Shown here in pieces: positions 9,680 through 30,155 of a stretch of 64,000 bases of DNA. Below the pieces are notes generated by a model, which saw only the letters and a list, made by a program, of their open reading frames with translations, was not told the origin of the DNA and did not search any database. Source of the DNA: Bacillota bacterium (GTDB lineage Bacteria > Bacillota > Sulfobacillia > JACIYH01); assembly GCA_040757085.1 (NCBI GenBank), contig JBFLXJ010000031.1, positions 1 to 64,000 on the forward strand, written 5' to 3'. Every line of letters starts with the position of its first letter. Within the stretch, counting starts at the first letter, position 1. The position numbers were made by a program, and so were the translations under genes.

Positions 9680-11347
9680 TCAGCCGGCTGGGCCTTTGCA
9701 GCAGCTCAACGTCTTCACCCGCTCTTCCGGGCGACGCAACACGCGACCCGGGCGGGCCCCTGTATGACTTCCCTCCTCGACCACGGGGACTCCGTTGACA
9801 AACACGTAATCGATACCAGCAGGGAAACGGTGCGGGTCCTGGAAAGTGGCATGGTCCTGGATGCGGTCGGGATCAAACACGCAGAGGTCGGCTGCACAGC
9901 CAGGAGCAATCACGCCCCGGTCCTGCAGGCCCAGCTTCCGGGCGGGCAGCCATGTCATCTTGCGTATGGCCGCTTCCATGGAAAGCAGCCCCTGCTCCCT
10001 GACGTAACTGGCCAGCACCCGCGGAAAAGTACCGTAATATCGTGGGTGCGGCCGACTGCCCGGATCCGGGCCACGGGGGCTTGTGGCCCGCCCGTCGGAA
10101 GCCACCAGTATGTCGGGATCTGCCAGGATGGTGCGCACGTCTTCTTCCTGCATCGCCTGCACCACCATTTTCACGTGGGCACGTTCTTCCACCAGCAGGT
10201 CCATCACCACGTCAGCGGGATCCTGTCCCCTCGCGTCGGCGATCTCCTGCAGAGTCCGTCCCTGCAGGTCCGAATTCTTTTCACTCCGGACGTGTGAAAC
10301 GATTACGTCTCGCCAGCGCAGGTCCAGAACCGGAGGCTCCCACCGGGGCTCCGCAGGCTGCACGCCGTAGATCTGCGCCTTCACTCTTTCGCGCACGGCG
10401 GGCTCCTTCAGGAGCCTTGCCATCTCTTCCACGCCCCGGGCTCTCACCCAGGGAGGCACCAGATCCTGGAGACCGCTACCAAAGGCAGTGTACGGGTACT
10501 GATCGGCGTCGATGGGAAGGCCTTCGCGTCGCAGCGCCCGCAGGTGTTTGAGGCGCTCCTCCCCTTTGCCCCAGCTGCGGCGGCCTTCCGCCTTAAGGTG
10601 AGAGATCTCCAGGGAGACCCCGGTTTCCCTGACCACCTGCACCACTTCCCGCAGGGATTCCTCCCAGTGAGCCCCTTCATCCCGCAGGTGAACACTCGTT
10701 ATCCCACCGGCCTGGCGCACGAGCCGGCACAGCTCAACAAGTTCGCCGGGCGTGGTGAAGGCGTCGGGAATATACGGGAGTCCCGCCGAAATGCCGAAGG
10801 CGCCCCAGGCCAGCTCACGCGTGAGCATCTCCTTCATGAGGCGGAGCTGGCTTTCATCCGGGGGGCCCTCCGCAAACCCCATCACCGCCACCCTCAGGGT
10901 ACCCTGTCCTACCAGCGTGGCCACGTTTACGGAAATCCCCCTCGCCTGCAGCCAGTCCATGAACTGGCCCAGGGTGGTCCAGGCCAGATCGAGGTCGCCC
11001 CCCTTCACCGCCACCGTGTTACTGAGGTAATCGCGCAGAGCACCCAGTTGCTCTTTCCGGGTGGGAGCCAGTGTAAAACCACAGTTCCCCACCACTTCCG
11101 TGGTGACTCCCTGCATCACCTTGCTGTCCGCAGTGGGCAATTCGGGCAGACTAAGGTCCGAATGGGAATGGATGTCTATGAAGCCCGGGCACACAACCCT
11201 CCCGTCGACACGTATCTCCCGTCTCGCAGGTCCTGCCACCCTGCCCATGGCAACGACGCGGCCGTCTCGTACGGCCACGTCACCGGGGAATCCGGGGCGG
11301 CCGGTGCCGTCCACCACCGTAGCATCGCGCAAGATATAGTCGTACAA
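9680..11347 (-). CDS. N-acyl-D-amino-acid deacylase (D-aminoacylase), second copy
   Basis: This amidohydrolase has 555 residues and would cut N-acyl-D-amino acids to a D-amino acid and a carboxylate. The metal site begins with GFIDIHSHSD (His60, His62). TEVVGNCGFTLAP carries Cys89, matching the zinc-bridging Cys of D-aminoacylases. Further signatures are ISHLKAEGR, an ASDGRA motif and the C-terminal FDPDRIQDHATF. The TTG start at 11347 follows AGGAGG by seven bases; upstream in-frame codons overlap the permease gene and are not conserved. It is the last gene of the operon. The paralogue at 14889-16553 shares the same layout, so the pair may split substrates by side chain. Confidence 0.9.
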   Translation of the reverse strand: MYDYILRDATVVDGTGRPGFPGDVAVRDGRVVAMGRVAGPARREIRVDGRVVCPGFIDIHSHSDLSLPELPTADSKVMQGVTTEVVGNCGFTLAPTRKEQLGALRDYLSNTVAVKGGDLDLAWTTLGQFMDWLQARGISVNVATLVGQGTLRVAVMGFAEGPPDESQLRLMKEMLTRELAWGAFGISAGLPYIPDAFTTPGELVELCRLVRQAGGITSVHLRDEGAHWEESLREVVQVVRETGVSLEISHLKAEGRRSWGKGEERLKHLRALRREGLPIDADQYPYTAFGSGLQDLVPPWVRARGVEEMARLLKEPAVRERVKAQIYGVQPAEPRWEPPVLDLRWRDVIVSHVRSEKNSDLQGRTLQEIADARGQDPADVVMDLLVEERAHVKMVVQAMQEEDVRTILADPDILVASDGRATSPRGPDPGSRPHPRYYGTFPRVLASYVREQGLLSMEAAIRKMTWLPARKLGLQDRGVIAPGCAADLCVFDPDRIQDHATFQDPHRFPAGIDYVFVNGVPVVEEGSHTGARPGRVLRRPEERVKTLSCCKGPAG

Positions 11348-11376
11348 AGCAAAACCTCCTGAAGTGCTTCCCGGGG

Positions 11377-12249
11377 CTACTGCTTCATGCGCGGATCCAG
11401 GGCATCCCGGAGAGCATCTCCAAACAGGTTGAAGCCCAACACGGTCAACAATATGGCCAGCCCCGGAAAGACGGCCAGCCAGGGGGCCCGATGCATGAAC
11501 GTGCGACCTGCATTGAGCATGGAACCCCAGCTGGGCAAGGGGGGCTGGGCACCCAGGCTGAGGTAGCTCAGGGTGGACTCCACGATGATGGCATCGGCCA
11601 TCCCCAGGGTGGCCATCACGATCATGGGCGGAATGGCGTTGGGGATAAGGTGCCGGGCCACAATGCGCCACGAAGAAGCTCCCATGGCCCGAGCCCCTTC
11701 CACGAATTCCTTCTCCCGCAGGCTCAGCACCTGCCCGCGCATCACGCGGGCGTAAGACGGCCAGGTGACGAGGCCAAGCGCCACCATGGCGCTCGTCAAA
11801 CCCGGTTCCAGCACGGCCACCAGGGCAATGGCCAAAAGGATGGTGGGGAACGACCACGCTATGTCGATCAGGGCGACCACCAGGTGGTCAACCCACCCCC
11901 CCAGGTAGCCGGCGGCAGCACCCAGCACGATGCCCAGGCCGGCCCCGATGCTCACCGCCACCACACCCACCGATAGGGAAATCCGGCTCCCATATATGAT
12001 CCGGCTCAATACGTCGCGGCCGAAGTCGTCCGTGCCAAGCACGTGCTCTCGGGAAGGTGGGAGGAGCACCTCGTCCAGATTCTGCTCGGCGTAATGGAAG
12101 GGGGCCAGCCAGGGCGCGGCGGCGGCTACCACCAACAGCAGGAACACCAGGGCGGCACCACCCATCGCCGCCTTCCTGCGCCACAGTTGTTTCCAGACCC
12201 GACCGAGCTGGCCGTCGGCCGATAATCTCGATTCCTGCAACTCGTCCAT
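11377..12249 (-). CDS. Peptide-type ABC transporter permease (DppC family)
   Basis: The 290-residue inner-membrane protein has an N-terminal helix after a Lys/Arg-rich start (RRKAAMGGAALVFLLLVVAAAA) and about five further membrane segments. The EAA-type loop reads KEFVEGARAMGASSWRIVARHLIPN, which docks the ATPase, and DDFGRDVLSRIIYG is typical of the DppC/OppC family. It pairs with the DppB-like permease 14 bases upstream and the binding protein before it. No ATP-binding subunit is encoded nearby. Placement between deacylase genes suggests it imports N-acylated or D-configured amino acids or short peptides; that specificity is inferred. Confidence 0.9.
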   Translation of the reverse strand: MDELQESRLSADGQLGRVWKQLWRRKAAMGGAALVFLLLVVAAAAPWLAPFHYAEQNLDEVLLPPSREHVLGTDDFGRDVLSRIIYGSRISLSVGVVAVSIGAGLGIVLGAAAGYLGGWVDHLVVALIDIAWSFPTILLAIALVAVLEPGLTSAMVALGLVTWPSYARVMRGQVLSLREKEFVEGARAMGASSWRIVARHLIPNAIPPMIVMATLGMADAIIVESTLSYLSLGAQPPLPSWGSMLNAGRTFMHRAPWLAVFPGLAILLTVLGFNLFGDALRDALDPRMKQ

Positions 12250-16616: not shown

Positions 16617-19600
16617 TCAGCGCACTGCAGCCTCCACCTGCGGGGACACGGGTACCTCTACCTCCAGGGGACGCAGGCAACGCTTCATCATGCGCAGGGC
16701 ACGGGCGGGGTCCAGGCGACCGTACAGCCCACCCACGATGCTGACCATGTATGAGGCATCCAGCAACACCTCTCCCCGGGGACGCAGGACATGGGCCTCA
16801 GTCGGGTCATACAGGGCACCCGAGGCGATGATGCGCAGGTGCTCCAGGTACCCGGGCCCGGCGTCCCGGCATTTGTGGTAAATGGTCCCTCCGATGAGTA
16901 GCGTGGTGCAACGATTGTTGAAGAAGTTCACCCCATACTGCAGGAAGTAAGTGTCCGTCTCCTGCACCCTTCCCACGTTGTTCCTGGTGGTGATGGCCAT
17001 GATCTCCCGACCCAGGTGGGAATGCAACCAGCTCTCCTCCTCCGACGCCGGCAGGTGGTGAGGGTGAGCGGAAAGATACCTGAGGTAGGAATTGACATCG
17101 AACAGCGCCCCCGGCCGGTCGGAACTGAAGAACTGGTGAAATACGTCTTCGCCCACCAGGCCGGGAACCCTCTTGGAGTCATGCGGCCGGGGCCGGAAAC
17201 CCGGGAACCGCTGCCAGAACTTGCGGGAGAGAACCTCTGCCGCCGTACCGTCCGCAAAGTGGGGCAACTCGAGCAGGTTTTCGGCATCGTACGCCAGCCC
17301 GAACTTCCCCTCCACCCGGCGGTATGCCAGGGGGGCATTGGGGGTCTTGAGGATGGTCCGCTTCACCCGCTTGCGGGGATCGTCGCCGGGGTAGGCGTAC
17401 AGCGGATTGGATGCCACGTTGGCGTAGAAGTCCGTGGTGGCACCGCCGATATCCAGGGCCACCAGGTTGCCCAGGCCGGGCTCGTCCTGGTACCCCTTCG
17501 CCAGCAGGTTGATACCCAGGAAGGCCGCCCGGGGCGTGGGCAGGAACGGCGCACTCATGTACTCCTCCACCACATCGAAGCCCTTGCCCCGGATGATCAC
17601 GGTTTGGAAGAGATCACGGATGGCCTCGTTCACCGCCTCGATGCGGAAGGTGTTCACCTCCGGCATCACGTTGGGCGTCACCCGCACGTCAACACCGTTG
17701 ATCCGGAAAATGCGCTCTACCTCGGCCGCCACGTCCTGGTTGCCCGCGTAAATCACCGGGATGCCGTAGCGGGCGTAGGTGGCTCGCCGGGCTTCCTCAG
17801 CCAGCAAGCGGGCATTGTGCAGGATGATCTCCGCTTCCCCGCCGTAGTCCACCCCACCGGCCAGCAGGATCATCTCCGGACGATCGTGCTGGTAGATGCG
17901 TTCCACCTCTTCATCGGTGAGACGGCCGGCGTAGCTCCCCACCAGCTTGGCCCCGGCGGTCAGCGCCGCCAGTTCGGCAGCCTCCCCACTCTCCTCCGGC
18001 ACCAGACCCACCGTCACCACCTTGAGACCACCTTTGGCACTGGAGCAGGGGAGTTTGATGTCGTACTCCGCCATGGCCCGGGCCAGGGGCTCCCAGTCCC
18101 CCCGCTCCCGGCACTCCTCCAAGACCCCCAGGCCGTTGGCCAGGCCTTCCCGCAAGTCCTCGGGCGTGGTGGCCACGTACCGAAGGTGGAATTCCTCCCG
18201 GTCCGTATCGAAGGTGCCGATCTTGGTGAAGGTGCTGCCGAAGTCCACCACCAGCACCTTCTTGCCCTCCACACGGTGGATTCCGACCCGGTCGCGGAAC
18301 GCCCGTACCACCGACTCGTCGATGGTCTCCGGCAACTCGGTGATGTACGACTCCTCGTCCGCCACCGAAATGCTCTTGTCAAAGTACCAGGGATAACGGG
18401 CGCGCACGAGGTCGACCCGCTCCATCTCGTCCTTGACCTTTCGATGGTCAAACTCGTCGATACGACAGCAGCCGTCGACCATCTTCGTGCGACACTTACC
18501 CACCATCTCGTAGCGCTTGTCCAGCACCGTCAGTTTGGGGGCCTGGAACAAACCCGTCTGCAGCGCCAGGTCCAGCGTGTCGGGACTGATCATGCCACAC
18601 TCGCCACCCGGGTAGTTCCGTTCGTCCACGAACGACAGGAGCATGGTCTCGTAGTTGCGCTCCCGGGCGGAAGGCTCGGCGCGCCGGGCAGCCTCCTCGG
18701 GCGGTACCGCCCAATCGAGGAAGTTCTGCACCGTCACCGGTCCTTCGTACCCTCCCATGAGGGCGAGGTGCAGGATGTTGTACATGGCCCCCCGCTTCAG
18801 CTCTTCTTTACGGGCCACCAGACGGGGATCGGAAAGCGGGTCAGGACGGTGGCCCTTGTAAAAGTCCTTCACCACCTGCTTGACGATCTCGCACGACTCG
18901 ATGATGTCCCGGGCCCGGGCCTCGTGGTGGGCCTCCGGATAGGACACCACGTGGATGATGTCCGGATCCACGAACATCTGCCACCAGGTGGTGATGGCCA
19001 GGTGGCCCTTGGCCATGTTGAGGTTGGGCGGGAAGCTGGACAACCCTCCCCGCGTCTCCTTGATGATGTGGAAGTCGAAGTGCCGCGTAAGGGGCTCGAT
19101 CAGTTCGTAGGCCGCCTGCATCTTGGCCAGGTCCATCAGCCCCGATATCTGGGGTGGAAGGTCGAACATGAGCTGCATGATGTAGTGGCGGATGCCCATC
19201 TTCAGGGCCACTACGCCCGCCACCACGTGGTCGGTCACGTACATGTCGTCCGAGCAGTTGCGAAGCTGCCACTGGTGCGGATCGTTGATCTCAAGGGGCT
19301 TGTCAAGGGAAGCCCACCAGCGCATCACCCGGAAGTGCTCATCAAAGGAATCACGGATAGAGATGGGTCCCCGGCCGTCCAGTTCGTTGTAGAAGAATAT
19401 GGGCACCGCCGGGAAGGGCATGTGCAGGGTCTCTTCGAAGATCTTGGCCAGTTCCAGCAACTCGTCGGTGCCCGAATAAATGCGGATCATGGGGAAATTG
19501 CCCCGGCGGGTGGCCTCCTTAAGGCGGACCAGGTCCTCCTTGCTGCGGATGGGTACCCCACCCTGACCCTTGAGGTATTTGGCAGGATCCTCTTCTCCCC

Positions 19601-20354
19601 GGATGAACTTGGCCAGGTAGGCCTGGCTGGGCTGGTCAGGACCCAGGGACACTATCTCCAGGGCCCCCGCCTCCGCCACCTCCATGACGTCGCGAATGGT
19701 GGGCTCCACGCTATCGGCGGCGATACCGATGTGGGCCCGCAGGATGGGCCGGTTCTCCCGGTCCCGCACCTGGCGAATGCGCTCCAGCAGTTCGTCCGAC
19801 CACTGTTCCTCCGCTACCCGCCGCGGGGGCTTGCCCAGGGCGAAGTCCAGCAACTCCTCCATGGTAACGAAGTCGTCCACGATCAGAGCGAAGAAGTCCC
19901 GGAACTTCTCCTTGTGACGGTATTCTTCTGCCACCTTGTCCAGGTCGTAGTGACGGTCCTCGGGCAGGGAAAAGCGGTCCTCCAGCACCGGTTGCCCGGT
20001 CATGGCCCGCACCAGGTTGGCCGCCGGGCGCAATCCTCCGAAGCAGTAGCGGATGCCGCTGGCCTGGGGATTTAGCCCATACTCCCACGCCTTTTCCACG
20101 AACTCTCCCACCAGCTTATCCACGTGCAGGTCACCCAGCCGAATGGAGATGCCCACCACCTCGGGGCGCGACTCCCTGATCTTGTTGATCACCTCCCCCA
20201 CGGGAACAGCCGGCCCCAGCTTGATGGCCACGTAGCCCATCCCCAGGTCCTCCATCCATTCCGCGAAGGATTCCACCCCCAGGGAATGGACGCAGTCCCC
20301 AATGGCCGCCACCAGTACCCGTCTCTTCCTGCCCACCCCAGAAGTGTCGCTCAT
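16617..20354 (-). CDS. Fused B12-binding / mutase-like barrel / GlmL-type reactivase protein
   Basis: This 1245-residue chain joins three parts that glutamate-mutase-type systems normally keep on separate genes. Residues ~10-150 form a B12-binding Rossmann domain with GDCVHSLG (Asp20, His23, Gly26) and a later YCFGGLRP. Residues ~200-640 look like the barrel of glutamate mutase/aminomutase E subunits (ILRAHIGIAADSVEPT, IVSLGPDQPSQAYLAKF). Residues ~696-1245 match GlmL/MutL ASKHA ATPases, with VVDFGSTFTKIG, SSAKGGLKVVTVGL, LLAGGVDYGG and LVALDIGGATTDFY. The expected activity is an adenosylcobalamin carbon-skeleton or amino-group rearrangement with built-in cofactor repair. The substrate is unknown. 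The start overlaps the opine dehydrogenase-like stop by four bases. Domain boundaries are estimates; the central barrel is the least certain part. Confidence 0.8.
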   Translation of the reverse strand: MSDTSGVGRKRRVLVAAIGDCVHSLGVESFAEWMEDLGMGYVAIKLGPAVPVGEVINKIRESRPEVVGISIRLGDLHVDKLVGEFVEKAWEYGLNPQASGIRYCFGGLRPAANLVRAMTGQPVLEDRFSLPEDRHYDLDKVAEEYRHKEKFRDFFALIVDDFVTMEELLDFALGKPPRRVAEEQWSDELLERIRQVRDRENRPILRAHIGIAADSVEPTIRDVMEVAEAGALEIVSLGPDQPSQAYLAKFIRGEEDPAKYLKGQGGVPIRSKEDLVRLKEATRRGNFPMIRIYSGTDELLELAKIFEETLHMPFPAVPIFFYNELDGRGPISIRDSFDEHFRVMRWWASLDKPLEINDPHQWQLRNCSDDMYVTDHVVAGVVALKMGIRHYIMQLMFDLPPQISGLMDLAKMQAAYELIEPLTRHFDFHIIKETRGGLSSFPPNLNMAKGHLAITTWWQMFVDPDIIHVVSYPEAHHEARARDIIESCEIVKQVVKDFYKGHRPDPLSDPRLVARKEELKRGAMYNILHLALMGGYEGPVTVQNFLDWAVPPEEAARRAEPSARERNYETMLLSFVDERNYPGGECGMISPDTLDLALQTGLFQAPKLTVLDKRYEMVGKCRTKMVDGCCRIDEFDHRKVKDEMERVDLVRARYPWYFDKSISVADEESYITELPETIDESVVRAFRDRVGIHRVEGKKVLVVDFGSTFTKIGTFDTDREEFHLRYVATTPEDLREGLANGLGVLEECRERGDWEPLARAMAEYDIKLPCSSAKGGLKVVTVGLVPEESGEAAELAALTAGAKLVGSYAGRLTDEEVERIYQHDRPEMILLAGGVDYGGEAEIILHNARLLAEEARRATYARYGIPVIYAGNQDVAAEVERIFRINGVDVRVTPNVMPEVNTFRIEAVNEAIRDLFQTVIIRGKGFDVVEEYMSAPFLPTPRAAFLGINLLAKGYQDEPGLGNLVALDIGGATTDFYANVASNPLYAYPGDDPRKRVKRTILKTPNAPLAYRRVEGKFGLAYDAENLLELPHFADGTAAEVLSRKFWQRFPGFRPRPHDSKRVPGLVGEDVFHQFFSSDRPGALFDVNSYLRYLSAHPHHLPASEEESWLHSHLGREIMAITTRNNVGRVQETDTYFLQYGVNFFNNRCTTLLIGGTIYHKCRDAGPGYLEHLRIIASGALYDPTEAHVLRPRGEVLLDASYMVSIVGGLYGRLDPARALRMMKRCLRPLEVEVPVSPQVEAAVR

Positions 20355-21805: not shown

Positions 21806-23086
21806 CTATAGGCGACGCCTGTGGGCAGCATGCCCACCGGAAGACTGGCCGAGCCAGTCACCCGTCGACACAACCGCCGCCACTGCCTTTCCGAATTCCA
21901 CGGTGCTCACCGATCGGCAGTTTTCCGCCATCCGCGCCAGATCAGGAGTAACCGTACCGCCCCCGACCACCTCTTCCACGGCGGCACGAACCAGCCGCGC
22001 AGCCTCGTGCCAGCCCATGTATTCCAGCAACATGGCCCCGGAGAGTATCAGCGAGGTGGGATTGGCTTTGCCCTGCCCCGCATATTTGGGCACCGAACCG
22101 TGGGTCGGCTCGAACACAGCCACCTCGTCAGACATATTGGCCCCCGGGGCCACGCCCAGCCCGCCCACCAGGGCAGCGGCTGCGTCGGACAGGTAGTCGC
22201 CGTTCAGGTTGGGGGCCGCGATCACATCGTAATCCCCAGGCCTGGTGATCAGCTGCTGCAACATGTTGTCGGCTATCCGATCCTTGATCACAATGCATCC
22301 ATCCGGCGCCCGTCCAGTGCCCAGCGTATCCTCTCGCACCACCCGATCGCCAAACTCCTCATCGGCGAGCTCGTACCCCCACTGCCGGAACGCCCCTTCC
22401 GTGTACTTCATGATGTTACCCTTGTGGACCAGGGTGACGCTTTTCCGGCCCCGTTCGAGTGCATACAGAAACGCTTTGCGAACCAGACGACGGGAAGCCC
22501 GGCGACTGATGGGCTTGACGCCGATCCCGGAATCCGGGTCCACGGTTACCCCCAGCGAATCGGCCAGGAATTCGATCAGCCGTCGGGCGGCCGGACTTCC
22601 GCTGGGCCACTCTATCCCGGCGTAGACGTCCTCGGTATTCTCGCGGAATATGACCAGATCCACCTGCTCGGGGTGCCGTAGGGGCGACGGCAACCCCGGG
22701 AACCAGCGTACGGGACGAACGCAGGCGTAGAGATCCAGGGCCTGCCGCAAGGCCACATTCACACTCCGAAAACCGCTGCCCACCGGTGTCGTGAGTGGAC
22801 CCTTAATGGCCACCTTGCACTGGCGGATGGCCTCCAGGGTTGCCACCGGCAGGTACTCTCCCGTCTTCAGGTAAGCAGACTCACCCGCCTCCAGGCTCCG
22901 CCACACCACCCGCCTCGCCCCCCCGTAAGCCCGCGCCACGGCAGCATCAAGCACGGGACGGGTCGCTTCCCATATCTCCGGCCCGATGCCATCCCCCGCG
23001 ATGAAACCCACCACGGGGCGATCGGGAACCACCAGCCTGCCTGCTTCCCACCGGCACAACTCCCCCGAAACATCCTGATGCCCCAT
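21806..23086 (-). CDS. icd: NADP-type isocitrate dehydrogenase
   Basis: The 426-residue enzyme oxidises isocitrate to 2-oxoglutarate and CO2. Substrate-binding residues are in TTPVGSGFRSVNVALRQ, with RPVRWF and VIFRENTEDVYAGIEW downstream, the metal-binding Asp region in APNLNGDYLSDAAAALVGG, and GSVPKYAGQGKANP near the coenzyme site. Length and motifs fit bacterial Icd rather than 3-isopropylmalate dehydrogenase. The ATG at 23086 follows GAGGTG by six bases and starts ten bases after the LeuD-type gene, so the two are co-transcribed. Together with the hydro-lyase upstream it would convert citrate to 2-oxoglutarate, if that enzyme is an aconitase. Confidence 0.9.
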   Translation of the reverse strand: MGHQDVSGELCRWEAGRLVVPDRPVVGFIAGDGIGPEIWEATRPVLDAAVARAYGGARRVVWRSLEAGESAYLKTGEYLPVATLEAIRQCKVAIKGPLTTPVGSGFRSVNVALRQALDLYACVRPVRWFPGLPSPLRHPEQVDLVIFRENTEDVYAGIEWPSGSPAARRLIEFLADSLGVTVDPDSGIGVKPISRRASRRLVRKAFLYALERGRKSVTLVHKGNIMKYTEGAFRQWGYELADEEFGDRVVREDTLGTGRAPDGCIVIKDRIADNMLQQLITRPGDYDVIAAPNLNGDYLSDAAAALVGGLGVAPGANMSDEVAVFEPTHGSVPKYAGQGKANPTSLILSGAMLLEYMGWHEAARLVRAAVEEVVGGGTVTPDLARMAENCRSVSTVEFGKAVAAVVSTGDWLGQSSGGHAAHRRRL

Positions 23087-23096
23087 CCGTTTCACC

Positions 23097-23600
23097 TCAC
23101 GCTTCCACGGCAAGTCGGCCGTGTCGCTTCACGTGAGCTACCAACCCGCCGTCCCGCAAAATCTGCAGCATTACCGGCGGAAGAGGTGCCGCCGCCACCT
23201 GGAAACCCTGCGTGACGTCCACCACCACTCCCCGCTCGAGGTCAACCCTCAGGAGGTCACCGGCAGCGATGCGGGATGTGTCGCAAATCACTACCGGCAG
23301 CCCCACGTTGATGGCGTTGCGGAAGAAAATGCGGGCCACCGACCGGGCCAGCACCGCGGCTACCCCCGCCAGCTTGATGATGGTCGGGGCGTGCTCACGG
23401 CTCGACCCTAGCCCGAAATTGCGCCCTGCCACCACGAAATCGCCCGGCTTGACCCGCGCCGGGAACCCGGGGTCGGCGTCCTCCAGCACGTGCCTTGACA
23501 GCTCGTGCAACTGGGAGCGCAGGTGGTAGTACCTGCCAGGAGCTATGTGGTCCGTCGAAATGTCGTCCCCGAACCTGTGGGCACAACCTTCCAGGATCAC
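23097..23600 (-). CDS. LeuD-type hydro-lyase small subunit
   Basis: The 167-residue protein is the swivelling domain of aconitase-superfamily hydro-lyases: GDDISTDHIAPGRYY near the N-terminus, then VVAGRNFGLGSSREHAP, whose SSREH arginine contacts substrate, and FFRNAINVGLPVV. It pairs with the large subunit gene, which it overlaps by four bases. The same fold serves 3-isopropylmalate dehydratase, homoaconitase, archaeal-type aconitase and citramalate/mesaconate hydratases. The neighbouring isocitrate dehydrogenase favours aconitase; no leucine genes are adjacent. Confidence 0.85.
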   Translation of the reverse strand: MILEGCAHRFGDDISTDHIAPGRYYHLRSQLHELSRHVLEDADPGFPARVKPGDFVVAGRNFGLGSSREHAPTIIKLAGVAAVLARSVARIFFRNAINVGLPVVICDTSRIAAGDLLRVDLERGVVVDVTQGFQVAAAPLPPVMLQILRDGGLVAHVKRHGRLAVEA

Positions 23601-24853
23601 AGCAGCACCTCCCTCGGGTCAGCGATAACCCCTTTCAGAGCCGTGGCAGCGCAAGTGGCCGGTGAAGCCAGGAACACCCGGGCTTCCGGGTTACCCATGC
23701 GGCCCCGGAAGTTGCGGTTGGTGGTGCTGAGGCACGTCTCGCCATCCCCAAGGATGCCGAGGTGCACGCCGGCACACGGCCCACAACCGGGTGGAGATAT
23801 GGTGGCACCGGCCTCCACCAGGTCGGCCAGGATGCCCGACCGCAAGGCCGCGAGGTACACCCGGCGCGAGGCGGGCATCACCAGCAGGCGCACCTCGGGC
23901 GCCACCTTCCTTCCGCGGAGGATGGAAGCAGCCACCTGCAGGTCCTCGAGGCGACCGTTGGTGCACGATCCGATGAACACCTGCTGCACGGGAGTGCCGG
24001 CCGCGTCAGCCACCGGGATCACCGCATCGACCCGGTGCGGTTTGGCCAGCAGGGGAACCAGCGCAGAAACGTCCACTTCTACTCGCCGGACATAGTCGGC
24101 GCCGGCATCCGGTTCCAGCGGTCGCCAGCAATGTTCTCTCCCCAGGCCGGCGAGATAAGCGCAGGTCACCTCGTCGGAAGCCACCAGCCCGGTCTTGGCA
24201 CCTGCTTCCACCGCCATGTTGCAGAGTGTCATCCGTCCGGCCATATCCATCCCCTCGATGGCCGGGCCTCCGAACTCCAGGGCCTGGTAGGTGGCGCCGT
24301 CGGCCCCCAGGTGGCCTATTAACCACAGCACGAGGTCCTTCGGGTAGACGCCGGCGGGAAACCGGCCTGTGGCCTCAACCCGCACGCTCTCGGGCACCCG
24401 GAACCACGTTTCGCCCAGGCCCATGGCCACCGCCACGTCGGTGGAGCCCATCCCCGTGGCGAAAGCGGCCAGTGCCCCGGCCGTACAGGTATGGGAGTCC
24501 GCCCCCACCACCACCTGGCCCGGGGACGCGTATTCTTCCACCGTCACCTGGTGACAGATCCCGTACCCGCAGTCATGGAGCCGACACCCGGCACTTCGGG
24601 CGAAGCGCCGCAAAAATGCGTGGTCGTTGGACAGCTCCTTGCGAGGGCTGGGCAGACCGTGGTCCAGGAAGACCAGTGTCTTCTCGGGCCGATGCAGGCC
24701 GGCCATTCCCAGAGCCTCGAACTGCCGCACGGCCAGGGGCCCGGTGCCGTCGTGCATAAGCACCAGATCCACGGGGACCACCGCGAACTCGCCTGCCCGC
24801 ACGGGTCGTCCCACCCTGTCTCCCAAGATCTTCTCCGCCAGCGTCCGGGGCAT
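23597..24853 (-). CDS. LeuC-type hydro-lyase large subunit (Fe-S)
   Basis: The 418-residue protein carries the catalytic [4Fe-4S] site of the LeuC family: VFIGSCTNGRLEDLQVA with one Cys, and GATISPPGCGPCAGVHLGIL with two Cys. VVGADSHTCTAGALAAFATG is also typical. With the small subunit it dehydrates and rehydrates a 2- or 3-hydroxy di- or tricarboxylate. Its length (~420) fits the LeuC/HacA branch. The ATG follows a GGAGGAGGG stretch. It comes directly after the GntR gene (40 bases) and before isocitrate dehydrogenase, so aconitase is the first guess; citramalate/mesaconate hydratase is an alternative given the nearby mutase. Confidence 0.88.
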   Translation of the reverse strand: MPRTLAEKILGDRVGRPVRAGEFAVVPVDLVLMHDGTGPLAVRQFEALGMAGLHRPEKTLVFLDHGLPSPRKELSNDHAFLRRFARSAGCRLHDCGYGICHQVTVEEYASPGQVVVGADSHTCTAGALAAFATGMGSTDVAVAMGLGETWFRVPESVRVEATGRFPAGVYPKDLVLWLIGHLGADGATYQALEFGGPAIEGMDMAGRMTLCNMAVEAGAKTGLVASDEVTCAYLAGLGREHCWRPLEPDAGADYVRRVEVDVSALVPLLAKPHRVDAVIPVADAAGTPVQQVFIGSCTNGRLEDLQVAASILRGRKVAPEVRLLVMPASRRVYLAALRSGILADLVEAGATISPPGCGPCAGVHLGILGDGETCLSTTNRNFRGRMGNPEARVFLASPATCAATALKGVIADPREVLL

Positions 24854-24893
24854 GATCCTGACCCTCCTCCGAAGTAGGCCGGAATGCCAACAA

Positions 24894-25571
24894 TCAGGAT
24901 TCCTGGTTGTTCTCCACCGCCCCCTTCATCACAAGCCACGCGTTCCAAATGTGCTGTCGCATTGCCCTTTCTGCCTGGTCGGGATCCCGCGCACGGATCC
25001 ACTTCAGAATCTCGCCGTGCTCCTCCACGAGCTCCGCGGCTCTGCCCGCAGTGGAAATAGTGCGGGCGCGGTAACGGTTGATGTGGTCACGCATGGTCTC
25101 CAGCTGCTGGGCGGCAAGCTTGAGCCCGCTGGCCTTTTGTATGGCAGTGTGGAACTCGAGGCTCTCCACATCCACTTCTTCATGCCGGCCTTTCTGCACC
25201 GACCGTCGAATAGCAGCCAGGATTTGCTCCATCCGATCGAGGTCCTCCGGCCTGGCTCGCCGGGCAGCGTATCTGGCCGCCAACCCCTCAAGCGCCGCCC
25301 GGATGGCAAATACCTCCTCTATCTCGTCCTGGCTCAGCCCCACCACTTCGACCACTCCCGTGGGCAGGCGCCGGACGAATCCCTCTCGCTCCAACAACTG
25401 CAGAGCCTCCCGCAGGGGAGTACGGCTCACACCCAATTGGTCCGCTAGCTGGCTGGCCACCAACCTGGTTCCTGCCGCGATCTCGCCGCGGACGATAGCA
25501 CGACGCAAGAGCCGGTAAGCTTCATCGCGGCGGCTACTCAACTCCACCCGGGGGAGAAATGGCACCTTCAA
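24894..25571 (-). CDS. GntR-family transcriptional regulator (FCD domain)
   Basis: The 225-residue regulator has an N-terminal winged helix (LLRRAIVRGEIAAGTRL, then LGVSRTPLREALQLLEREG, residues ~17-60) and a C-terminal all-helical FCD ligand domain (~85-215) with FHTAIQKASG and HGEILKWIRARDPDQAERAMRQH, whose His residues bind a metal and carboxylate effector. The TTG start at 25571 is preferred because GAGGTG lies six bases upstream and because it leaves two palindromes just outside the coding region. It leads the hydro-lyase/isocitrate dehydrogenase genes and probably controls them, with an organic acid as effector. It may also act on the divergently named operator at 21686-21701. Confidence 0.85.
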   Translation of the reverse strand: MKVPFLPRVELSSRRDEAYRLLRRAIVRGEIAAGTRLVASQLADQLGVSRTPLREALQLLEREGFVRRLPTGVVEVVGLSQDEIEEVFAIRAALEGLAARYAARRARPEDLDRMEQILAAIRRSVQKGRHEEVDVESLEFHTAIQKASGLKLAAQQLETMRDHINRYRARTISTAGRAAELVEEHGEILKWIRARDPDQAERAMRQHIWNAWLVMKGAVENNQES

Positions 25572-25584
25572 CCTGACCACCTCG

Positions 25585-25621
25585 GATGCTGCACGGTGCA
25601 TTTGATCTGCTGCATGCAGCA
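25585..25621. promoter_or_regulatory. Paired palindromes upstream of the GntR gene (operator candidate)
   Basis: Two inverted repeats lie next to each other: TGCACGGTGCA (arms of five with a central base) within 25590-25600 and the perfect 14-mer TGCTGCATGCAGCA at 25608-25621. Both share a TGCA core. They sit 15-50 bases before the chosen start codon, a common place for autoregulation by GntR proteins. Which protein binds is not shown. Confidence 0.5.
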
Positions 25622-25789
25622 TTCGCCATCCCAGCCAAAACTCCTCTTCATGACCACGTGGCCACCATGCAGCGCACAACGACATGCCGGCCAGGTGCCG
25701 GATGCGGCATATACAAGGATACCGAGCACATCCCGTACGCCCAGAGCACCTCTAACCCCGTCTCGCGGCCAGATTTGCAATCTCAAGTC

Positions 25790-28397: not shown

Positions 28398-30155
28398 TTA
28401 CCTGTGACAACCGCTGCCCTTGGGGCCCAAGCCGTACTTGCGCATCCTCCGGTAAAGAGTGGAAAGGCTGATACCCAGTTCCCTCGCTGCAGAAAGCCTC
28501 CCCTGAAGGGTGTCTCCGTAGGTTGCAAGGACCTGCCTCAGCAACTGGTATTCTCGATCTGCCACCGGGGGCTCGGCGGACTCAATCATGTGCTTAGGAA
28601 GGTCTTCCACCGTGATAACAGAACCCTGCGCTACCAGAACCGCACGGGTTATCACGTGATCCAATTCACGCACGTTGCCCGGCCAGGAGTAATTTTCCAG
28701 GATGCGGTATGCCCGAAGGTCGACTCCTCCCACACGTTTTCCCAACCGGGTCTCAGCCGCCCTCAGGAAGTGCTGGACTAGCAGCGGAATGTCTTCCCGC
28801 CTCTCCCGCAGCGGTGGCAACACCAGCTCCAGCGTGCTGAGACGGAAATAAAGGTCAGCCCGGAACTCGCCCTTTTCCACCTTTCCTCGCAAGTCGCAGT
28901 TCGTCGCCGCGATCACGCGGGCGGCAACCCTGCGGGGCTTAGCGCTGGCCACCTTTTGAACCTCACCCGTGTCCAGAAACCTGAGCAGCTTCGCCTGCAG
29001 CATCGGTGGAAGCTCACCGATTTCATCGAGGAAAAGGGTGCCCCCTTCGGCAAGCTCCGCGTATCCCGGCTTACCGTCCCTCCTCGCGCCGGTGAAGGCC
29101 CCCGCTTCGTACCCAAACAACTCGCTTTCCGCGATCTCCGACGGTATCGCCGCACAGTTAACCGCAACGAAAGGCCCGTTGCGCCGCCCGCTGAGACGGT
29201 GAATGGCGCGCGCCACCAGCTCTTTCCCCGTGCCGGTTTCTCCTGTGACCAGCACCGTGACCGCGGTGGGCGCGATCTTGCAGATCATCGCCTTGAGCTC
29301 TCTCATCGACCGACTGTCCCCGATGATATCGCCGAGGACGTCGCCCCCTGCCAGGTTAACCCCGGCGAAACAGGCCCGCGCGGGCTGCAGCCCGATCACT
29401 GCACCCGGGCACGTCCCTCGCCCGCCACCGCCGACGGGCTTGACCCGCACGGTCGCCGTCACACCCGTGGGCAGGGCAACGTGCTGCCCGTCAAGCCGAT
29501 AAATCTCCCTAAACCCCGGCACGTCGCGGCCAGCCTTAAGACCGGGCAAGATCTCGGTCACCGGCCTGCCCACCGCATCGACAGGCAAGCCGACCAGTTC
29601 GGCCGCACAGGTATTCAGCTTGCGCACGAGGCCGTCTTCCCCCACGACTATGACGCCGTCCCCGACTGCCTCCATAATGGCGTCGGCCTCCATGCCGGCC
29701 CGGGCAACCTCGGAAAACAGAATGCCCGCCGCGGCGTCCTCGGCGAGCCACAACGCGAGCGCCCGCAGGTATTCGGCCCACGCCTCCCTGCGGGCAAGAA
29801 CGCGATCTCGGGATTCTAAGTCGTAGGCGAGGATGCCGGCGACACCCACGACCTCCCCGTTCTGCCGAACAGGGGTGGACATTACCAGCGTGTAGGGACA
29901 CACCCGGTAGGCTTCGCAATCGCGGCACCGGCCCGGGCCCCTGGGTTCAAAAATGGCAAACTCCTGACCGGTGACTATAGTCTGATGGAAATACGATCCG
30001 TGAGGCCTCGCCGTGCCCACGTTTGCCCTGTACCGGCTAGTCCCCAGAAGGCCAACCCGGTCTTTCCCTGCAACACCGATATCGACGCCGGTAACCGCCG
30101 CGGTTGCCGCCAGCAACCTCTGGACTTGCTCTCTGACCTCCGGGCTCGAGGCCAT
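28398..30155 (-). CDS. Sigma-54-dependent transcriptional activator with sensor and PAS domains
   Basis: The 585-residue activator has an N-terminal sensor region (1-150), a PAS domain (~170-240), an AAA+ domain and a Fis-type helix-turn-helix at the end. The AAA+ Walker A motif is GETGTGKE (~303), the sigma-54 contact loop GAFTGA is intact (~355), and ATNCDLRGKV and FRADLYFRLSTLEL follow. The DNA-binding end reads LQGRLSAARELGISLSTLYRRMRKYG. The sensor region contains GRCRDCEAYRVCPY, a Cx2Cx5C cluster that could hold a metal or iron-sulfur centre. Its likely target is the acyl-CoA dehydrogenase/hydrolase pair directly downstream. The effector is unknown. Confidence 0.92.
   Translation of the reverse strand: MASSPEVREQVQRLLAATAAVTGVDIGVAGKDRVGLLGTSRYRANVGTARPHGSYFHQTIVTGQEFAIFEPRGPGRCRDCEAYRVCPYTLVMSTPVRQNGEVVGVAGILAYDLESRDRVLARREAWAEYLRALALWLAEDAAAGILFSEVARAGMEADAIMEAVGDGVIVVGEDGLVRKLNTCAAELVGLPVDAVGRPVTEILPGLKAGRDVPGFREIYRLDGQHVALPTGVTATVRVKPVGGGGRGTCPGAVIGLQPARACFAGVNLAGGDVLGDIIGDSRSMRELKAMICKIAPTAVTVLVTGETGTGKELVARAIHRLSGRRNGPFVAVNCAAIPSEIAESELFGYEAGAFTGARRDGKPGYAELAEGGTLFLDEIGELPPMLQAKLLRFLDTGEVQKVASAKPRRVAARVIAATNCDLRGKVEKGEFRADLYFRLSTLELVLPPLRERREDIPLLVQHFLRAAETRLGKRVGGVDLRAYRILENYSWPGNVRELDHVITRAVLVAQGSVITVEDLPKHMIESAEPPVADREYQLLRQVLATYGDTLQGRLSAARELGISLSTLYRRMRKYGLGPKGSGCHR

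Follow-up and report, generated by a model that had tools for sequence, protein, structure and literature searches.

Can a B12-dependent mutase and the ATPase that would reactivate it be read from a single gene, and what would such a protein do? The question is raised by a 64,000-nucleotide stretch of DNA from a Bacillota bacterium (GTDB lineage Bacillota; Sulfobacillia; JACIYH01; GenBank assembly GCA_040757085.1, contig JBFLXJ010000031.1, positions 1 to 64,000), referred to here as the window. On its minus strand, positions 16617..20354 hold one ATG-initiated frame of 1245 amino acids without an internal stop, in which an initial annotation had placed a B12-binding part, a mutase barrel and a GlmL-type ATPase with ASKHA motifs. 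Family matches, fold models and a full-length alignment with L007, L008 and further relatives bear out these modules, their borders and their order, and the three-module single-chain protein is confirmed as real. We consider it, with a probability of roughly two in three (0.68), to be a single-chain adenosylcobalamin (AdoCbl) mutase that belongs to an opine-dehydrogenase-associated B12 family and carries its reactivating ATPase on the same chain.

The fusion recurs well beyond this genome. Among 299 genomes of the same phylum, two more carry it in full (72% and 67% identity). A scan with one genome per species returned 64 loci, mostly holding the fusion or pieces of it. In all, about 58 loci besides the window's, spread over several phyla, contain the fusion or fragments of it. 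At least 47 other distinct full-length fusions were found at 60-91% identity, mostly in metagenome-assembled genomes (MAGs) of Chloroflexota and Bacillota, the closest (L081) being 91% identical. The hosts are Chloroflexota (most), Bacillota, Atribacterota, Bipolaricaulota and Spirochaetota, together with single MAGs labelled Actinomycetota, Desulfovibrio, SAR324, Aerophobetes and Lokiarchaeota, some of which labels are possibly binning errors. The same single-chain design is present in about 50 uncultured anaerobes. Fused and stand-alone mutase halves are split by one branch (support 100/100), and the fused ATPases also form one clade (100/100), albeit on a long branch within the GlmL tree. 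Since the fusion is a single clade in both halves, one fusion event would explain the sequence phylogenies. Moreover, the many full-length records and the shared clade show that the fusion is not an artefact, and errors of assembly or frameshift are ruled out by the about 58 loci in many genomes. In two Anaerolineales genomes (L067, L083) the gene is split over two adjacent frames, perhaps through sequencing error.

The N-terminal residues 8-118 (20001..20333, minus strand, as are all parts of the gene) form a Rossmann-type B12-binding domain, delimited by PF02310, profile matches to the PDB, AlphaFold and column counts. The profile searches that the initial annotation had put forward recovered MutL for the ATPase, left the B12-binding domain just under its cut-off (PF02310 on residues 12-73, 26.9 bits against 32.1 in the Pfam scan) and gave no family for the fused barrel. 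A family profile of the N-terminal region matched the B12-binding domains of solved proteins with E down to 1.6e-10. His23, the putative lower ligand, and Gly26 of the HxxG motif are invariant in 52/52 sequences. No cobalamin riboswitch was matched by Rfam within the window; the genome encodes the corrinoid adenosyltransferase CobA.

The central part had been proposed to be a barrel, and AlphaFold returned one when the mutase half (residues 1-690) was modelled from an alignment with 52 relatives (predicted local distance difference test, pLDDT, 90.8). The TIM barrel spans residues about 188-533 (18756..19793). The top Foldseek matches of the mutase half were glutamate mutase epsilon subunits (6h9e_B, 1cb7_B; E 3e-14, TM-score 0.64-0.66 by target length), followed by lysine 5,6-aminomutase alpha, ornithine aminomutase and methylmalonyl-CoA mutase. 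The GlmE family PF06368 was matched by stand-alone relatives at 30.6, 28.1, 27.0, 26.9 and 26.7 bits (cut-off 26.6), and profile-profile alignment with hhalign placed the family collinear with GlmE 37-452. These models and matches support a predicted AdoCbl-mutase-type barrel homologous to GlmE. Residues R206, H208, D240, Q241, Q244, R291, Y293, D326, R328, E355, N357, H360, W362, R365 and R435 are invariant in the family, and R206, H208, R291, Y293, H360 and R365 are candidate substrate residues. Judging from the sequences, a polar, charged substrate is probable, rather than glutamate held in the GlmE fashion.

The ATPase occupies residues about 697-1230 (16665..18266) and was assigned by PF13941, TIGR01319, blastp, AlphaFold and Foldseek. 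PF13941 (MutL) scored 291.5 bits (cut-off 27) over residues 700-1030 and a second stretch further on, and NCBIfam TIGR01319 scored 221.5 bits, above its cut-off of 204; the protein stays below the GlmL equivalog cut-off (291 against 475). By blastp this half aligned over about 450-540 residues at 26-35% identity with GlmL proteins along their whole length, many of them encoded beside glmE. Both ASKHA motifs are intact, as first noted, and conserved among relatives (VVDFGSTFTKIG at residues 702-713 and LVALDIGGATTDFY at 964-977). A sequence search of the PDB with the ATPase profile found nothing. The separately computed AlphaFold model (pLDDT 88.2) matched ASKHA proteins in Foldseek, namely acetophenone and acetone carboxylases, N-methylhydantoinase and glycerol kinases, with the RACo complex 4c1n lower at rank 22. 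The domain predicted to be GlmL-type is therefore supported as GlmL family by sequence and as ASKHA by modelled fold. Three more GlmL-family proteins of 600-716 amino acids are encoded in the same genome (G000:C23:210355-240249; L003, L004, L005) and lie on a long separate branch.

Relatives of about 550 amino acids that lack the ATPase are far commoner than the fusion in the same phylum. They align to residues 12-653 of the fused protein at 31-38% identity. The fused proteins form a clade apart from the stand-alone ones, 35-40% identical to them and with extra insertions. Column counts placed insertions at residues 119-152 (19899..20000) and about 536-580 (18615..18749), and a linker between mutase and ATPase halves at 655-690 (18285..18392; delimited also by AlphaFold, with low model confidence at 672-678), in fused proteins and not in stand-alone ones. 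These segments may contact the ATPase. At one locus (L077) a stand-alone pair adjoins the fusion operon, and the genome from which the window comes also encodes a stand-alone paralogue, accompanied by an opine dehydrogenase of its own (L002, G000:C2:224386-226400). Stand-alone relatives in L102, L112 and L117 have a separate MutL gene in their cluster, so the two components of the fusion also exist as neighbouring genes. A BtrH_N/DUF4872 gene lies beside L002, and a further BtrH_N gene is found close to the fusion in L057.

The stand-alone proteins are apparently the B12-dependent family predicted by Zhang et al. in 2009, a match made by architecture and gene context. In that report (PMC2667541) the family has an N-terminal B12-binding domain and a TIM-barrel-like part, occurs in 11 bacteria and is always adjacent to a PF02317 (octopine dehydrogenase) gene; some members also lie close to genes for D-Ala-D-Ala ligase and asparagine synthase. 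Among our stand-alone relatives, ATP-grasp genes are neighbours in L112 and L116 and an asparagine synthase gene is one in L110. The 2009 account is silent on an ATPase, on kinship between the barrel and glutamate mutase, and on a gamma-glutamyl or D-amino-acid context. No later experimental paper on the family was found in the open-licence literature.

The partner gene of the 2009 family is present here too. An opine dehydrogenase (PF02317; 20351..21640, minus strand) lies immediately upstream, its stop codon overlapping the ATG of the fusion (ATGA). Its profile aligned with the whole chain of N-(1-D-carboxylethyl)-L-norvaline dehydrogenase (PDB 1bg6, E 5e-115), and His221 and Asp342, invariant in 13/13 sequences, aligned with H202 and D297 of 1bg6, which we take to be its catalytic pair. 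Of the 43 fused loci whose flanks are available, 39 show such a gene directly beside the mutase gene, as do 24/30 other loci; in some of the remaining fused loci it is possibly hidden by antisense frames in gene calling.

Other neighbours of the fused genes often belong to glutamate and D-amino-acid metabolism. An amidohydrolase resembling N-acyl-D-amino-acid deacylase (PF07969; 14889..16586, minus strand) begins 30 bp downstream in the window, and its family is found in 5 fused loci. Across 50 fused loci we counted RpiR regulators (20 loci), C45/AAT acyltransferase-hydrolases (15), Peptidase_C26 (6), TRAP transporters (5), D-aminoacylases (5), D-glutamate-cyclase-like (GLUCM) proteins (4) and MttB (4). 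An Orr-like racemase accompanies gamma-glutamyltransferase (GGT) in two fused loci and one truncated locus, and in L042 (14039-15286) a glutamate 2,3-aminomutase of the radical S-adenosylmethionine type lies next to the fusion (689 bits, equivalog cut-off 650). The GLUCM-like C-terminal domain, the C26 peptidase and the racemase scored below an equivalog cut-off or had none, so these names stand for a family rather than for an exact substrate. At least one of AAT/C45, C26, D-aminoacylase, GLUCM, racemase and GGT was present in 29/50 fused loci against 0/24 true stand-alone loci, a comparison among loci that are related by descent and so not independent. The stand-alone count leaves aside L083, L090, L067, L084, L085 and L089, which are pieces of fused genes; of these only L083 and L090 had such enzymes.

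How might the enzyme work? The frame, the folds, the conserved histidine, the kinship of the barrel, the relatives, the partner gene and the operon content are data; AdoCbl use, radical mutase chemistry, the substrate class, the order of mutase and dehydrogenase, and reactivation are what we infer from them. AdoCbl would be bound base-off with His23 as lower ligand. Entry of the substrate into the glutamate-mutase-like barrel would lead to Co-C homolysis, and the 5'-deoxyadenosyl radical would bring about a 1,2-rearrangement without pyridoxal 5'-phosphate (PLP), most likely a carbon-skeleton shift in a glutamate-like amino acid. Candidate substrates would be D-glutamate, beta-glutamate and N- or gamma-substituted glutamate. 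We rank D-glutamate or a closely related derivative first, tentatively and with the odds against it, since D-, gamma- or beta-glutamate compounds are what several of the neighbours, independently of one another, work on. The adjacent opine-type dehydrogenase would oxidise the C-N bond of the product, or would make or break a secondary amine ahead of the mutase. It is doubtful, if conceivable, that the protein is an AdoCbl mutase that reactivates itself and handles a glutamate-type compound beyond the reach of the known mutases, and that together with this dehydrogenase it constitutes an undescribed anaerobic route. If so, it would serve gamma-glutamyl and D-amino-acid polymers (peptidoglycan stems, poly-gamma-glutamate) and would be frequent in Chloroflexota.

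The notion of a "self-repairing" mutase, put forward in the initial annotation, would mean ATP-dependent reactivation by the GlmL-type domain. With damaged cofactor (cob(II)alamin or hydroxocobalamin) in the site, the ATPase would spend ATP, open the enzyme and release the cofactor, and fusion would keep ATPase and mutase at 1:1. Even for GlmL itself, the idea of reactivation is traced in PMC4682846 to work on diol dehydratase by Mori and Toraya in 1999. Alternatively, the mutase could be active and the ATPase mainly a gate for cofactor loading, in the manner of MeaB/MMAA. The nucleoside triphosphatase (NTPase) chaperone of methylmalonyl-CoA mutase serves both delivery and removal of damaged cofactor (PMC10481361, PMC10356863), whereas the established role of ASKHA factors, the diol dehydratase reactivase among them, is to exchange cofactor that has been damaged (cited in PMC4682846). 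The present data do not tell loading from repair; we regard a role mainly in loading as quite unlikely.

Several observations weigh against an AdoCbl mutase acting on glutamate-type compounds. The fused barrel itself matches no Pfam or NCBIfam mutase family, and the hhalign probability with GlmE is moderate (59-84%). Glutamate mutase binds glutamate through an arginine claw, R66, R100 and R149 (PMC9545868). All three are invariant in 15 GlmE, and in our family the claw is not conserved: R66 aligns with H208, R149 with Y293 and R100 with a Ser/Gln stretch, a placement that is fairly reliable at R149, less so at R66, and of low confidence at R100. Glutamate is therefore unlikely to be bound in the GlmE manner. 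In the B12-binding domain the aspartate of DxHxxG is replaced by Cys21 in 31/31 fused and 19/21 stand-alone proteins (Asp in 2), which is odd for AdoCbl mutases. Lastly, no glutamate- or D-amino-acid-type neighbour is common to all loci, and the MttB-type methyltransferase gene in four fused loci leaves room for methyl transfer. The codon of residue 21 lies at 20292-20294, and the cysteine is nearly family-wide.

The methyl transfer alternative would have methylcobalamin on the N-terminal domain, a barrel acting as transferase for the methyl group of an amine or betaine, and an ASKHA domain that reactivates cob(II)alamin as RACo does. Besides the MttB genes, it can appeal to the B12 domain, closest by sequence to a methyltransferase-type corrinoid protein and MttC (4jgi, 7xcn), and to the RACo complex among the ATPase matches. 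However, among the 50 best Foldseek matches the nearest folds to the barrel are those of glutamate mutase and further AdoCbl mutases rather than methyltransferase barrels; the ATPase is of the GlmL family, with no RACo-type iron-sulfur domain found in the Pfam scan; and most fused loci lack MttB. We judge a corrinoid methyltransferase improbable. Equally a long shot is a bifunctional enzyme whose ATPase performs a second catalytic step, an ATP-dependent preparation of substrate resembling 5-oxoprolinase/hydantoinase or carboxylase. The best fold matches of the ATPase, the ASKHA domains of acetophenone/acetone carboxylase and N-methylhydantoinase, point that way, as does a weak Hydant_A_N match (18 bits, Pfam cut-off 25), and D-glutamate-cyclase-like and gamma-glutamyl neighbours could supply a cyclic glutamate substrate. 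Yet the TIGR01319 score above cut-off and the whole-length alignment with GlmL proteins encoded beside glmE place the ATPase in the GlmL family, and the absence of a hydantoinase partner domain from the chain (Pfam scan) hinders the alternative. A methylmalonyl-CoA-type mutase is ruled out by a Foldseek rank far below glutamate mutase, and a PLP-dependent aminomutase (OraE/KamDE) by the absence of the Schiff-base lysine of the Rossmann domain.

An AdoCbl mutase with a fused ATPase, the interpretation we favour, resembles glutamate mutase (GlmE/GlmS with GlmL) in barrel fold, independence of PLP, type of B12 domain and ATPase family. It differs in that three genes there are one here, with the B12 domain N-terminal to the barrel in the same chain, a claw that is not conserved and an opine dehydrogenase as partner; among its conserved neighbours we recognised no gene for methylaspartate ammonia-lyase. 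Genomes G111 and G080 hold a full-strength GlmE besides the fusion, a co-occurrence that points to a reaction other than that of glutamate mutase and, together with the claw, rules out an orthologue. Ornithine aminomutase (OraE) and lysine 5,6-aminomutase share a related barrel and a B12 domain, but in our protein the domain order is reversed and the position of the PLP lysine is Met34 (Met or Leu in fused, mostly Ala in stand-alone proteins); no S subunit gene was noticed. The likeness to glutamate mutase and ornithine aminomutase seen at the outset thus holds for the barrel, and the protein is neither enzyme.

The parallel with IcmF drawn in the initial annotation also holds. IcmF has an AdoCbl mutase and an NTPase chaperone of an unrelated family functional on one chain (PMC10481361), although IcmF acts on a CoA substrate and its chaperone is a G protein of the MeaB type, where our protein has a GlmL-family ASKHA ATPase and a glutamate-mutase-like barrel. 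IcmF itself was only a weak Foldseek match to the mutase half (TM-score 0.14), and the protein is not of IcmF type. The claim of novelty stands for the ATPase fusion, and for its operons with gamma-glutamyl, D-glutamate and N-acyl-D-amino-acid enzymes; a B12 domain and barrel on one chain already exist in OraE (PDB 3kow) and in the relatives of about 550 residues. No published mutase-GlmL fusion was found in the open-licence literature, which is no proof of absence. The fusion is conserved and new as an architecture, inside a family so far only predicted. It links that family to the glutamate mutase/GlmL system and names its ATPase, while the operon context leaves a small number of candidate substrates that can be tested. 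Because stoichiometry and complex formation are built into the chain, it offers a convenient direct test of the role of GlmL-type ATPases, as IcmF does for G-protein chaperones.

The remaining genes around the fusion in the window were annotated with Pfam. Downstream lies a peptide-type ABC solute-binding protein (PF00496; 13220..14875, minus strand), its SBP_bac_5 family being found in 33/50 fused loci; an ABC permease (PF00528; 12264-13184) and a second amidohydrolase (9680-11857) go with it. Upstream of the dehydrogenase, 21806..25685 (minus strand) encodes an NADP isocitrate dehydrogenase, small and large aconitase-type subunits and a GntR/FCD regulator. Among fused loci the isocitrate dehydrogenase and HacA/LeuC-type aconitase genes (21806-24853) occur in the window only; as they are not conserved at other fused loci, we take them to be local and rule them out as pathway enzymes. 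Further upstream, a sigma-54 activator with a PAS domain is encoded at 28398-30155 (minus strand), and similar regulators lie near the mutase genes of L115, L079 and L042.

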